Source of the DNA: Shewanella sp. 10N.286.48.A6
Lineage (GTDB): Bacteria > Pseudomonadota > Gammaproteobacteria > Enterobacterales > Shewanellaceae
Assembly (NCBI RefSeq): GCF_002873135.1
Contig: NZ_MCVI01000028.1
Location: 1 to 64,000, forward strand
Direction of reading: 5' to 3'
Length of the DNA: 64,000 nucleotides
In this document: one piece after another, positions 9,559 to 43,531 of the stretch
How positions within the stretch are numbered: the stretch's first letter is position 1
Layout: the number at the start of each line of letters is the position of its first letter
Translations under genes and position numbers: made by a program
Notes under the pieces: model-generated
The model's database searches: none
Told to the model about the DNA's origin: nothing
What the model saw: the letters and a program-made list of their open reading frames with translations, nothing else

Positions 9559-9653
9559 GGTTTACTCCTAAAAAAATACCAGAATCAGGGCTTTGAAGAG
9601 TGGCTTTACGCCAAACGAAATGCACCAGCATACCTAAGTAGTGGTGTTTTCTA

Positions 9654-9833
9654 TTCTCTTTCATCCGGACTATAACCGTCGGCTCTGGACTGTTAGGCGT
9701 ACTTCATGTGAAAACATGGCCTAAGTCACCAGATCTGCTGACCTCGAAAAATATCGAGCGCTCGCGGGCTCATCTTGGCGCATTTAGTCGCCTCGATTTA
9801 CCGCCGGTGGGGAATTGCGCCCCGCCCTGAGAA
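9654..9833 (-). promoter_or_regulatory. FMN riboswitch (RFN element)
   Basis: Read on the minus strand, the element starts TTCTCAGGGCGGGG, continues with ATTCCCCACCGGCGGTAAAT, and ends GTCCGGATGAAAGAGAA, the conserved RFN core with its flanking P1 strands. It lies 95 bases before ribB. FMN binding should reduce ribB expression. The space between element and start codon shows no classical terminator with a U-run, so translational control is as likely as attenuation. Confidence 0.95.
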
Positions 9834-10039
9834 TTTAAATTGTGATGCTTAATAAAGTTAAGCGCGGCCATTTTATGGCAAAAATGACTATAAAAAAAGG
9901 GCTTATGCTCACAGTCTTAGATATAAAATGTCATCAAGAGTGGGGCGTTTTAGGGGGTGACTGGATAATTTTGTGAACAAACTTGCTCGCTGGTATGACC
10001 TCTGATAGCCTTTGCCGCTGACAAAGGAGTTGTAGCCCC
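9834..10039. other. Region upstream of the riboswitch and thioesterase gene
   Basis: About 200 bp between the start of the RFN element and the thioesterase start. It should carry the ribB promoter on the minus strand and the promoter of the gene at 10040 on the plus strand. AAAGGAG at 10023-10029 is the probable ribosome site of the latter. No other structure seen. Confidence 0.35.
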
Positions 10040-38459: not shown

Positions 38460-38742
38460 GCCATATTCTGGATTTCTTACAAATAAAAAAGAATCGCAAC
38501 GTTATTTGAAGGTGAATAAATTGCGTTTGATCCCAGCATTAAACCATTAGGTTTATGACTTCATTCTCAAAAGAAAGCGCCATACAAATATATCGGCAAT
38601 TGGCGGCAAAAGTTTAATCAAAATGTTGTTTATAGCTGATTGAAAACAGAGGGGGGAAATGGTCGATAAGCTGTAGTGAAGGGGGAATTAAGATCTTATA
38701 TTTATTATGGTTATTTTATCATGGGGTTTTAAAGTCGCTAGT
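38460..38742. other. Intergenic region upstream of the chemoreceptor
   Basis: About 280 bp, AT-rich. It should hold the promoter of the chemoreceptor gene on the minus strand. No gene or repeat seen; the duplicated promoter of the DUF4870 gene begins at 38743. Confidence 0.35.
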
Positions 38743-39019
38743 TTGACTTATTGCCAGCGGCGCTGCTTATATTTTAAACTTAATTTTACTGGTTTACTTT
38801 GTCGCTAGCGGTAATTAGGCCACAAACACAAATACAAATAAAAGTACAAATAGTGAAGGATAACTATTCTAAGCCAGGTATGGATATCGATGACATCCTG
38901 TCAGACCTTCATTGCTGTTTTCATGCACTTTTTTTAATTTTTTAAATACCATTAAACTCATACACCAATCATGTAGCCAGCTTCACAGTGCTCATTGAAT
39001 GTGTATAAAGGAATTATCC
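38743..39019 (+). promoter_or_regulatory. Duplicated promoter and leader, copy A
   Basis: TTGACT at 38743-38748 and TATATT at 38768-38773 form a sigma70-like pair with a 19-bp spacer. The same two boxes with the same spacing occur before the second DUF4870 gene. The leader then carries AAGGATAACTATTCTAAGCC, a 21-codon ORF at 38880-38945 (MDIDDILSDL...), a small stem GGATATC-GAT-GACATCC, and AAAGGAATTATCC before ATG 39020. Confidence 0.7.
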
Positions 39020-39361
39020 ATGAGCCAAGACACGGAATTAGTCATCAATGAAATTACCCAAGATGCGAAAAATATGGCGCGACTATGTTGGGTTGGCACC
39101 TTGTTTTTCGGCTTCATTCCGGCGCTGGTATTGTTGTTTGTGAAACAAGATGATGACTATATCCAAGCACAATCAAAAGAGGCGTTGAATTGGTTTCTCA
39201 CTGGTGTCATTGGTTATAGCATTGGGTTTATGCTTTTCTTTAGCTTAATGGGAGTCATGCTTACTTTAGTATTGGCTATCAGTCATTTGGTCTTTTGTAC
39301 CATAGGCGCTTTAGCCACTTCCAAAGGCGACAGTTTCCGCGTGCCCTTAGCCTGCGATTAA
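39020..39361 (+). CDS. DUF4870-type small membrane protein A
   Basis: 113 residues from ATG 39020. Three to four membrane segments, with QSKEALNW between helices one and two and a closing HLVFCTIGALATSKGDSFRVP, as in the DUF4870/Tic20-like family. About 60% of residues match the protein at 41873-42223, so the two arose by duplication. Ribosome site AAAGGA. Function of the family is unknown; inner-membrane location is certain from hydropathy. Confidence 0.82.
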   Translation: MSQDTELVINEITQDAKNMARLCWVGTLFFGFIPALVLLFVKQDDDYIQAQSKEALNWFLTGVIGYSIGFMLFFSLMGVMLTLVLAISHLVFCTIGALATSKGDSFRVPLACD

Positions 39362-39436
39362 TTAAGTAAACTGAAGTCAAATCCCATGGTGACAGTTTTA
39401 GGGGCTGAAAAATGTATATAGCAGCCACTAGGGCCT

Positions 39437-39973
39437 TTATCGCGTGTCAGTAATGGGCTTTTTCAGTAATTTACGTTGCAGCGTTCTTCTGTGCATCCCC
39501 AATAGCCTTGCCGTGGCAGAAATGTTGCCATTATTGGCGGTCAGAACCTGTTGAATATGCTCCCACTCTAGTAGCTTGGGCGAAATCGGCTGCTCAGACA
39601 ATAACGGCTCATTTTGCTCATTGGGGCTAACATTGAGGGCGTTTAATAAGGTTTGGGTATCAACGGGTTTGGCTAAGTAATTGTCGGCACCTAATCTGAT
39701 GGCTTCAACTGCAGTGGCAATACTGGCGTAGCCTGTTAGTAATACGATTAATGCGTTAGGCAGGTATTGGCGCAGCGGGGTGATTAACGCTAAACCATTC
39801 TTATCGGCCAATTTCATGTCTAATAAAATATGACTCGGTGCATGCTGGCGGGCTTTTAATAAGCTTTGCTCCGCACTGTTACATTGCACGCAGTTAAATC
39901 CATGACGGCTTAAGCGGCTGGCGAGCACGGCGGCTAAGGCGCTATCATCTTCAATAATGAGTAAGTTATTCAT
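39437..39973 (-). CDS. RegA/PrrA/ActR-like response regulator
   Basis: 178 residues. Receiver domain with acidic pocket Glu8-Asp9-Asp10 and phospho-acceptor Asp52 (LLDMKLADKNG), a short linker, then a Fis-type HTH: ISATARLLGMHRRTLQRKLLKKP, the hallmark of the RegA family. RegA members respond to redox state through RegB and control respiration and carbon and nitrogen pathways. The partner kinase gene ends 11 bases upstream, so both are cotranscribed, kinase first. Targets not visible. Confidence 0.92.
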   Translation of the reverse strand: MNNLLIIEDDSALAAVLASRLSRHGFNCVQCNSAEQSLLKARQHAPSHILLDMKLADKNGLALITPLRQYLPNALIVLLTGYASIATAVEAIRLGADNYLAKPVDTQTLLNALNVSPNEQNEPLLSEQPISPKLLEWEHIQQVLTANNGNISATARLLGMHRRTLQRKLLKKPITDTR

Positions 39974-39984
39974 ACCTAATAAGC

Positions 39985-41265
39985 CTATTTTTCTATGGGT
40001 AAGGTTACAGTGGCAATCATGCCTTGCTCTGGGTTGGGTTGTAGGGTTAGTTTTCCGCCTAAGCGCTCAAAACTGGCATGGCTTAATAACACTGCAATCC
40101 CTAAGCCTTTGGGGCTTTCAATCATTTTATGGCCAAGTTTTTCCAGCAAACTTTCAGACATACCTTCACCAAAATCGTAAATGCCAATGCTTAGCCCAAC
40201 TTGTTTATCTAAGGTGATTTTTATCGCTACTTTTTGGGTTTGAATATTTTCCTGACTGGCTCTGGCGGCATTTTCAATTAATGCCAATAATGCCGGTAAT
40301 AGACTCATATCGGTGAGAATTTCTACTCGGTCAGCGTTGTCAGCCAGGGTTAAAGACAGCTGAATTTCAGGCATGAGTAAATTAACTTGCTCTTGCAGGC
40401 TACTGGTTAAATTATTCACGGTTTGCGAGTGCATTTTTTCCGATCGAATAGACTCGGTGGCCTGCCTTAAATCTGTTAGGCTTTTCTCGCAGCGATTCAG
40501 CGCCTTATTCATTTCAAGCTGTAAGTGACCCGCTTGATTATCTTCGCCAAGCTCTTCTAATAATAGCCTTAAAGTGGCCAGTGGCGTAGCCAATTGGTGA
40601 GCCATTTGTGCTGATACTGTGCCCAGCGCCAATAGCTTTTCTTGGCGCATTTGCGCTTCGCGCAAGTAATGTAATTGGGCGTTTTTTTGGCGAATTTTTT
40701 TTGCAATAAACGCCACCGTGGTGGTGAGTACTAATGCTGAAATAACAAAGTTAAACCACATGCCTAAGTAGTGGGAACTCATGTCCATACCATGGTGCAT
40801 GCTGTGATCGGGTTGAGTAAAAATCATCGCACTGTAGGCGGCGGTAGAAATAAGCGCCAAACACCAAGGGGCCCATTGTGGCAACATGACAGCAGCGATG
40901 GCGATAGGCAATAAAAGCAATGAAATAAAGGCATTAGCTGAGCCACCAGTACAATACAGCCATATAATCCAAAATAGGGTATCTAGCAATAAGGTGGCAA
41001 ACAATAATTGGTTTTGGTTAATGGCGTAACGAACGCGAAAGCCAATAGCGACATAGACAGCTTCAACAGCAAGAATAAAGTTGAGTTCCATTGGTGGGGC
41101 GGTTAAGCCAAATAACTGAGTCGCAAATAAGATCAAGCCTATTTTTAATAGCCAATAAATGAGCCGTAATGCGGATAGTTGTGCTGTTGGCGTGCCCATT
41201 AAAGCCGCTGATTTTGCGACGTTATTATTGTGGATTTTATTATTATTGATTTGATTATTGGTCAC
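39985..41265 (-). CDS. RegB/PrrB-like redox sensor histidine kinase
   Basis: 426 residues. Six membrane helices, then a kinase core with the RegB-type H box MAHQLATPLATL (His223), Cys259 in NRCEKSLTDLR at the place of the RegB redox-box cysteine, N box ENAARAS and G boxes FGEGMSE and GLGIAVL. The quinone-binding heptad, GGxxNPF in RegB, is GGSANAF (107-113). A loop reads HSMHHGMDMSSH (154-165), rich in His and Met. The first 16 residues are Asn-rich and coded by AT-rich repeats, so the start may be later (Met23). Confidence 0.9.
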   Translation of the reverse strand: MTNNQINNNKIHNNNVAKSAALMGTPTAQLSALRLIYWLLKIGLILFATQLFGLTAPPMELNFILAVEAVYVAIGFRVRYAINQNQLLFATLLLDTLFWIIWLYCTGGSANAFISLLLLPIAIAAVMLPQWAPWCLALISTAAYSAMIFTQPDHSMHHGMDMSSHYLGMWFNFVISALVLTTTVAFIAKKIRQKNAQLHYLREAQMRQEKLLALGTVSAQMAHQLATPLATLRLLLEELGEDNQAGHLQLEMNKALNRCEKSLTDLRQATESIRSEKMHSQTVNNLTSSLQEQVNLLMPEIQLSLTLADNADRVEILTDMSLLPALLALIENAARASQENIQTQKVAIKITLDKQVGLSIGIYDFGEGMSESLLEKLGHKMIESPKGLGIAVLLSHASFERLGGKLTLQPNPEQGMIATVTLPIEK

Positions 41266-41604
41266 GTTGTTATTGTTTACCTTTTTTATTTTTAGTGGGG
41301 TAAATAACTTGGTATAAGTGATGATACATTAATTGAATTATGCAGACTTTAACATCACATCTTGTTTATTTTGTGCGGAGGAGCAAAGCAAGCGTTTTAG
41401 GCGGTATTCCCTTTTGCATCAATGAAATATATTTATCTTTTTCGCCAGCTTTTTATAGTAAAAAGCCAAACTATGATGCTGTTATCCAATGCCCAGTAGT
41501 ATTAAATGCCCAGTATCAATTACCCAGTATCGATGACCTAGGCTGAAATTATTAACTCATAAAGCGATAATATGGTTTATATCGTTCTGTTTTAAAAGGT
41601 TAAT
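41266..41604. other. Intergenic region upstream of the RegB-like gene
   Basis: About 340 bp. It should carry the minus-strand promoter of the kinase operon. An imperfect repeat of about 15 bp (AATGCCCAGTA..., three copies) lies near 41485-41535. An ATG-started 68-codon frame at 41340-41546 runs through the repeat and is not called. Confidence 0.4.
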
Positions 41605-41872
41605 TTGACTTGCTAATATCAATCGTGGTTATATTTTAAACCTTGAGTGCCACTGTGATGCTTTAATCAAGCTGTTATTGGGCATTAAGTATCAATATAG
41701 GTAGTAAAGGACAACTATTTTAAGCCCTGATATGGATATCAATCATATCCTTTCAGATCTGCTGGATAGTGTTTATTACTTTTTCTATTTGCTACGAACT
41801 AAATACTAAATACCGCTAAAGTCTTGCACCCAGTTTTAGTGGGTTCATTGGGTGTCTATAAAGGAATGAATA
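41605..41872 (+). promoter_or_regulatory. Duplicated promoter and leader, copy B
   Basis: TTGACT at 41605-41610 and TATATT at 41630-41635, 19-bp spacer, as in copy A at 38743. The leader repeats AAGGACAACTATTTTAAGCC, a 25-codon ORF at 41732-41809 (MDINHILSDL...), the stem GGATATC-AAT-CATATCC, and CTATAAAGGAAT before ATG 41873. Confidence 0.7.
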
Positions 41873-42223
41873 ATGAGCGAAAATACCGACGTAGTGATAA
41901 ATGAAATTTCACAAGATAGTAAAAATATGGCGCTGTTGTGCTGGATTGGTACCATCTTTTTTGGGTTTATCCCCTCGTTGGTGTTGTATCTAGTCAAAGA
42001 AGATGATGCATACCTTAGAGAGCAGTCTAAAGAGGCGCTGAACTGGTCAATTACTGCCACCATTGGTTATTTCATTTCGTTCATTCTTACTTTCATTTTA
42101 ATTGGGGTGTTATTTACCTTGGTATTGGGCGTTTGTCATTTGGTCTTTTGCATTATGGGCGCGATTGCCACATCAAAAGGTGATAACTTTCGCGTGCCAT
42201 ATACTTTGCGATTAATTAAGTAA
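41873..42223 (+). CDS. DUF4870-type small membrane protein B
   Basis: 116 residues, paralogue of the protein at 39020-39361: NEISQDSKNMALLCWIGTIFFGFIPSLVL, REQSKEALNW, and CHLVFCIMGAIATSKGDNFRVP align without gaps. Same membrane topology. The leader is duplicated too. It is followed by a 28-bp palindrome and then the Bax-inhibitor-like gene, which may be cotranscribed. Confidence 0.82.
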   Translation: MSENTDVVINEISQDSKNMALLCWIGTIFFGFIPSLVLYLVKEDDAYLREQSKEALNWSITATIGYFISFILTFILIGVLFTLVLGVCHLVFCIMGAIATSKGDNFRVPYTLRLIK

Positions 42224-42997: not shown

Positions 42998-43531
42998 TTG
43001 CAACTCGTAAAGCCAAGTGCCTACTACCAGCAGAGCTATATTGATTATATTACCGAGCTAGGGGATGAAGAGCGCTACCCGTTTCCGCTTGATTTTGACC
43101 ACAGTGATTTTGGCGCAATGCTCGAAAAAATCAGTGACTTTGCCCGAGGGCAGAATTTACCTGCAGGTTATGTGGCCAGTGAAACATACTGGTTAGTGGA
43201 AGGTGATGAGCTCTTAGGTGTCGCCAATTTACGTTTAACTCTCAATGATAATATTCGTTATTGTGGCGGCCATATTGGACTCGGTATTCGACCGCGTTTT
43301 CGAGGTAAAGGCTTAGGGGTTGAATTGCTGGCGCAAACTATCGCATTGGCAAAGGGTAAAGGCATCAATGAGCTGCATATTCATTGTTATAAGCACAATC
43401 TTGCCTCGGCAAAAATGATCATCGCCAATGGTGGGGTGCTTGATTCTGAAATTGAATTAGATACTCAAAGCAATGAGAAAAATCAGCAAGATAACGCTGC
43501 GGCAATAATACAGCGCTATCGAGTATCTTGA
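42998..43531 (+). CDS. GNAT-family N-acetyltransferase
   Basis: 177 residues from TTG 42998, with AAGGAG seven bases upstream deciding the start. The acetyl-CoA loop is seen in GIRPRFRGKGLGVELLAQTIALA, followed by IHCYKHNLASAKMIIANGG. Domain of the acetyltransf_3/RimJ-like type acting on a small molecule or antibiotic; substrate unknown. Confidence 0.88.
   Translation: MQLVKPSAYYQQSYIDYITELGDEERYPFPLDFDHSDFGAMLEKISDFARGQNLPAGYVASETYWLVEGDELLGVANLRLTLNDNIRYCGGHIGLGIRPRFRGKGLGVELLAQTIALAKGKGINELHIHCYKHNLASAKMIIANGGVLDSEIELDTQSNEKNQQDNAAAIIQRYRVS

Follow-up and report, generated by a model that had tools for sequence, protein, structure and literature searches.

Two DUF4870 genes and their leaders

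We analysed a window of 64,000 nucleotides (nt) of Shewanella sp. 10N.286.48.A6, which lies on contig C28 of a 4.65 Mb genome (here G000) and carries two genes for DUF4870 proteins, each preceded by a closely similar leader. Copy 1 is encoded at 39020..39361 on the plus strand (113 amino acids; PF09685, E 7e-21, 74.6 bits against a cut-off of 25), and copy 2 at 41873..42223 on the same strand (116 amino acids; PF09685, E 2e-28, 99.3 bits against a cut-off of 25). We grouped these proteins with the HOTT/MamF-like/Tic20 proteins (PMC11628618), and the same source describes the HOTT/Tic20-like family as uncharacterised, magnetosome members excepted. The AlphaFold2 model of copy 2 had a mean predicted local distance difference test score (pLDDT) of 90.9; Foldseek found nothing significant in the PDB (best E 2.7), and the VIA-align ranking placed unrelated receptors at the top. 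As a separate observation, copy 1 ends in RVPLACD (39330-39361), where the other nine Shewanella copies have LRLIK or LRLVK; its DNA at this tail is one base shorter than that of copy 1 in the related genome G087, which may be a real change or an assembly error.

The original prediction, that the two genes share about 270 bp of upstream sequence, was borne out by the PF09685 matches and by the alignment of 38740-39019 with 41600-41872, in which 185 of 254 positions were identical (73%) and the score of 56 compared with at most -13 in 200 shuffles. The predicted TTGACT and TATATT boxes indeed stand at equal spacing on the plus strand, at 38743..38773 in copy 1 (TTGACT 38743-38748, TATATT 38768-38773) and at 41605..41635 in copy 2 (TTGACT 41605-41610, TATATT 41630-41635). 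They are promoter-like by motif match, and the 19-nt spacer of both pairs lies beyond the 16-18 range of the promoter scanner, which reported other promoter-like sites in the leaders, 3 versus 1.5 (standard deviation 1.3) and 5 versus 2.4 (standard deviation 1.6) in shuffles. Further downstream, the conserved block AAGGAYAACTATTYTAAGCC and a micro open reading frame (micro-ORF) are present in each copy as claimed, the latter at 38880..38945 in copy 1 (plus strand, 21 codons, MDIDDILSDLHCCFHALFLIF) and at 41732..41809 in copy 2 (plus strand, 25 codons, MDINHILSDLLDSVYYFFYLLRTKY); neither is probably a gene. The Shine-Dalgarno regions are marked by AAAGGA, at 39007..39012 for copy 1 and 41860..41865 for copy 2, both on the plus strand. 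A promoter-like block, TTGC-17-TAATCT, was spotted by eye in the leaders of a second clade (below) and was dropped for its poor match to the consensus.

Conservation of the leader element

In a search of 129 same-genus genomes at E <= 1e-15, this DUF4870 subfamily was found in eight genomes as 10 copies, two each in G000 and G087 and one each in the six others; PF09685 matches of any kind (E <= 0.001) occurred in 113 of the 129. The single-copy orthologue of G026 is 88% identical to copy 2 at the protein level. All eight genomes carry the genes at one syntenic locus, with a methyl-accepting chemotaxis gene before them and relatives of the genes at 42998 (GNAT-like) and 43542 (flavin mononucleotide (FMN)-reductase-like) after them, these two labels being taken from sequence without a family search. 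A Bax1-I gene comes next in seven of the eight loci; none was detected in the stretch from G026.

Our alignment A1 covers 86 nt surrounding the conserved AAGGA in each of the 10 copies. The invariant columns were GT.AAGGA...CTAT together with a G of a second GGA. In every leader the first box (GGA1) is AAGGA at -149 to -164 and the second (GGA2) follows 24-25 nt later, both falling within 124-164 nt before the start codon. GGA1 fits ANGGAN in all 10 copies and GGA2 in nine, where it reads AUGGAU (four copies) or, in the second clade, AAGGAG (four) or AAGGAA (one). Besides this pair and a third GGA, contained in the AAAGGA at the ribosome site, five copies have no other GGA within the last 220 nt, four have one and one has two.

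Such pairs are infrequent elsewhere. Among 78 upstream regions of mechanically called open reading frames of at least 120 amino acids, drawn from the window and three related loci, five had an ANGGA pair 18-32 nt apart (one of them being copy 1), and copy 1 alone had the 24-25 nt spacing. Shuffled leaders contained ANGGA pairs in 1.1% and 2.7% of cases. Among homologues outside this group (22 loci, of which L090 was dropped as it had no start with enough upstream sequence), one of 21 leaders had a pair, and as a control the common DUF4870 subfamily had none in the five scorable loci of 31, most loci being unscorable. Similarity left over from the duplication, in a leader without function, is quite improbable as an account of these data: likeness is indeed expected of copies 1 and 2 as paralogues, but the second-clade leaders, otherwise poorly alignable, have the AAGGA...CTAT block too, and with it the GGA spacing.

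A covariance model built on A1 with a structure that we drew (R1) was scanned over the genus and the order with strict filters, by which weak matches can be lost. In the 129 genus genomes R1 matched the 10 copies, as it must by construction, and one further sequence weakly (E 0.1); in 394 genomes of the order, partly overlapping with the genus set, it matched only known copies, in three genomes, at E <= 0.05. Near the third DUF4870 member of G000, R1 gave no match at E <= 0.1. These scans therefore show specificity and not independent confirmation. Judged by these comparisons of sequence, the leader element is conserved and gene-specific. The weak additional match is L054 (G046:C1:3514882-3514990).

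A second model, R2, was made from the five second-clade leaders alone and searched against the window, L012 and L036 (88 kb). R2 placed a hairpin around GGA1 (hairpin 1, below) at 38848-38868 (rank 3, E 1.2) and at the corresponding position in L012 (E 1.2), whose other leader it also matched (second leader, E 2.8). Homology across the clades thus rests on position and synteny besides sequence.

The shortness of the conserved block, its partial inverted repeat and its tie to one gene could also fit a DNA operator, in which ATAG-N10-CTAT would be a transcription-factor site just downstream of the promoter. We consider this improbable, since conservation is higher in the non-palindromic centre AAGGA than in the outer arms, a second GGA at fixed spacing is left unexplained, and the only other site that R1 picked up in these genomes at E <= 0.1 was the one at E 0.1, with the caveat that weak sites can escape the strict filters.

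Pairing and folding of the leader

Comparative pairing sets both GGA boxes in the loops of short hairpins on the plus strand. In copy 1, hairpin 1 is AATAGT-GAAGGATA-ACTATT at 38849..38868, with GGA1 (38858-38860) in the loop, and hairpin 2 is GGT-ATGGAT-ATC at 38877..38888, with GGA2 (38882-38884) in the loop. The counterparts in copy 2 are GTAGT-AAAGGACA-ACTAT at 41701..41718, with GGA1 at 41709-41711, and TGAT-ATGGAT-ATCA at 41728..41741, with GGA2 at 41734-41736. On A1, the two-hairpin structure paired 88% of cells versus 76.7% in shuffles, with a covariation of 0.431 versus 0.252 (0 of 500 shuffles as high for either value); slid versions of the structure paired 28-61%, and their covariation too stayed below that of the structure itself. 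It exceeded the shuffles, which ignore the relatedness of the sequences, on three of five measures. Within the second clade (five rows), a hand-drawn structure with an AAGGAU hexaloop paired 98.2% of cells versus 31-46% when slid. In energy folding of 56-nt pieces, GGA1 had an unpaired probability of at least 0.76 in seven of the 10 copies.

The stem that had been predicted over the micro-ORF start fared less evenly. In copy 2 (41734-41750) its 6 bp are uninterrupted, whereas in copy 1 (38882-38898) an A.C mismatch breaks it. On the alignment it did worse than a control slid by three columns, with 66.7% of cells paired as against 71.7%, although only 8 of 500 shuffles attained its covariation score. 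A search of the window and both leaders with Rfam gave no leader match at the gathering cut-off, and one chance match (E 2.5, 15.2 bits versus 91). The conserved region with its weakly paired parts might belong to some other structured cis-acting RNA, such as a site for a small RNA or for a protein other than CsrA, or a riboswitch-like fold, in which the GGA boxes would be the conserved core. In A1, GGA2 could pair with a UCC further downstream, a pairing that in copy 2 is the predicted stem and that would suit this account; we nevertheless find the account unlikely in view of the little stable structure and the lack of an Rfam match in the leaders at the gathering cut-off.

The micro-ORF as a candidate leader peptide

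A leader kept through duplication had been taken as a sign of a translated leader peptide or a structured RNA that controls these proteins. The conserved cis element stands, and the RNA option is the better one; the translated peptide, MDI(D/N)xILSDL, is rejected. In its favour, the first ten codons are nearly unchanged in four sequences from two close genomes (G000 and G087), all of which keep the MDI start, and between copies 1 and 2 three of the five codon differences there are synonymous (3 synonymous, 2 non-synonymous), in agreement with the original prediction. The expected conservation in relatives was, however, not found: six of the 10 copies have no micro-ORF, namely G026 and the five copies of the other clade, and G026 reads VDSKYLLLNT in this frame with no ATG there. 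Nor does codon-level constraint appear between the orthologues of G000 and G087, which differ in the first ten codons by 0 synonymous and 3 non-synonymous changes; for copy 2 and G026 the counts are 1 and 8. Moreover, the downstream half lies in a different frame in copy 2 of G087. No Shine-Dalgarno-like word occurs 5-14 nt before either micro-ORF ATG in the window, and the AAGGA is no usable Shine-Dalgarno site for the micro-ORF because it lies 19-20 nt before the ATG. Taken with its absence from G026 and the second clade, we regard a translated leader peptide as very improbable.

On the explanation that we prefer (below), the micro-ORF ATG falls within the hairpin 2 region by coincidence, and a promising micro-ORF can thus be an accident of an RNA-binding site. 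Separately, both leader copies show the same A/G difference (ATC/GTC) between G000 and G087, at 38895-38897 and in the counterpart codons, a possible sign of gene conversion between the two.

A possible CsrA-type control region

CsrA/RsmA binds GGA in hairpin loops, ANGGAN hexaloops best, and pairing of the GGA reduces its affinity (PMC7652899). One CsrA dimer bridges sites 10-63 nt apart (PMC7652899), a range within which the 24-25 nt between the two GGA boxes falls in all 10 copies. A Csr pathway with CsrB1 and CsrB2 is described in Shewanella oneidensis (PMC3171408), and csrA is encoded in the window genome (G000:C21:57750-57905, E 8e-26). Since the published CsrA signature, the Shewanella Csr pathway and csrA in the genome come together here, CsrA is the best candidate. 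We therefore tentatively read the shared leader as a CsrA/RsmA-type two-site post-transcriptional control region on the messenger RNA (mRNA) of a Tic20-like (HOTT) membrane protein, and give this reading somewhat short of an even chance. Its action as RNA, the binding of CsrA and the direction in which it acts are points that we infer. Two lower-scoring matches to the CsrA family, G000:C54:6458-6628 and G000:C56:2247-2414 (L042 and L043), were also seen in this genome at E of about 4e-7, over the family cut-off.

Several observations weigh against the CsrA reading. In the alignment, double-change pairs (343 of 500 shuffles as high) and pair types (470 of 500) are not above shuffles, the pair changes rest largely on one difference between the two clades, hairpin 2 having for the most part a single change, between them. 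The second clade by itself has no pair in which both partners change, and its result equals that of the corresponding shuffles. In three of the 10 copies the register of hairpin 1 is interrupted (pair 25-40); the hairpin appears in the minimum-energy fold of the 56-nt pieces in five, neither window copy included. By energy folding, GGA1 is unpaired with a probability below 0.6 in three copies, and GGA2 is mostly paired, in the window copies as elsewhere (unpaired at most 0.36 in seven of 10); in G026 GGA2 reads GUGGAU. R2 ranks two chance matches in the window higher than hairpin 1 and misses copy 2 and the G026 leader, and a scan of the window's own genome with R2 lists neither leader at E up to 10. 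In addition, the CSRA_TARGET rule asks for a site at the ribosome site, at least three primary sites and at least two pairs 10-60 nt apart (PMC4066749), which by a hand count scoring primary sites are present in 9, 8 and about 4 of the 10 copies, respectively, so that about 4 of 10 satisfy the full rule. Most copies fall outside it, as more than 100 nt separate the pair from the third GGA at the ribosome site.

If CsrA does act here, one dimer would hold both boxes, GGA1 in its short hairpin loop and GGA2 in a weaker, alternative hairpin, and this would alter the stability or translation of the Tic20-like (HOTT) membrane-protein mRNA, an effect that free CsrB-type RNAs would relieve. Given their distance from the ribosome site, the two boxes would be likelier to act on stability, as in flhDC, or through leader structure, as in pgaA, than by direct blocking of the Shine-Dalgarno sequence. 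In Escherichia coli, flhDC mRNA is stabilised through two sites close to its 5' end (PMC7652899). The putative sites here are likewise two leader sites away from the ribosome site, but GGA1 would lie about 67-78 nt into the transcript, as counted from the promoter-like boxes, whereas those of flhDC are near the 5' end. Two sites in E. coli pgaA act via leader structure (PMC7652899); the pair of leader sites and a CsrA-dependent change of RNA structure, proposed here, resemble that case, although pgaA carries further sites at the ribosome site. The AAGGAU loop sequence is also that of a loop in the control RNA RsmZ-2 (PMC4066749), from which our case differs in that two boxes stand before a gene, not in a sponge RNA, and the stems are weaker.

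A more elaborate version, which we regard as doubtful, would be a two-state RNA switch, in which either a CsrA dimer sits on GGA1 and GGA2 or GGA2 pairs with the downstream UCC; the level of a protein with a putative role in membrane targeting would then be set by the Csr network, and duplication would have provided two separately tuned copies. CsrA binding, if true, would tie a HOTT/Tic20-like protein to the Csr carbon-response network. Among open-licence full texts, we found no paper holding both DUF4870 and CsrA.

Neighbouring genes and other features

A RegA-like response regulator (39437..39973) and a RegB-like histidine kinase (39985..41265) lie on the minus strand between the two DUF4870 copies, outside the element. 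Their predicted position is correct, but these best NCBIfam families score below the curated cut-offs (119.6 versus 350 and 158.5 versus 250 bits for the RegB/RegA-like pair). A link of this pair to the DUF4870 genes is not supported: the pair stands between DUF4870 copies in two of the eight genomes only (G000 and G087), and RegB relatives occur in 108 of the 129 genus genomes (E <= 1e-60). The kinase at 39985-41265 is the sole match of G000 at E <= 1e-60, and in G027, G037 and G046 its relative is placed away from the DUF4870 locus; the gene may therefore have moved.

In copy 2, a possible hairpin was noted immediately ahead of the Shine-Dalgarno site (41826..41854, plus strand; z -0.74 versus shuffles). 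Hairpins at this place looked suggestive by eye, had z from -2.47 to +0.22 over the 10 copies, and are not claimed. Elsewhere in the window, an FMN riboswitch was matched at 9649-9838 on the minus strand (97 bits).

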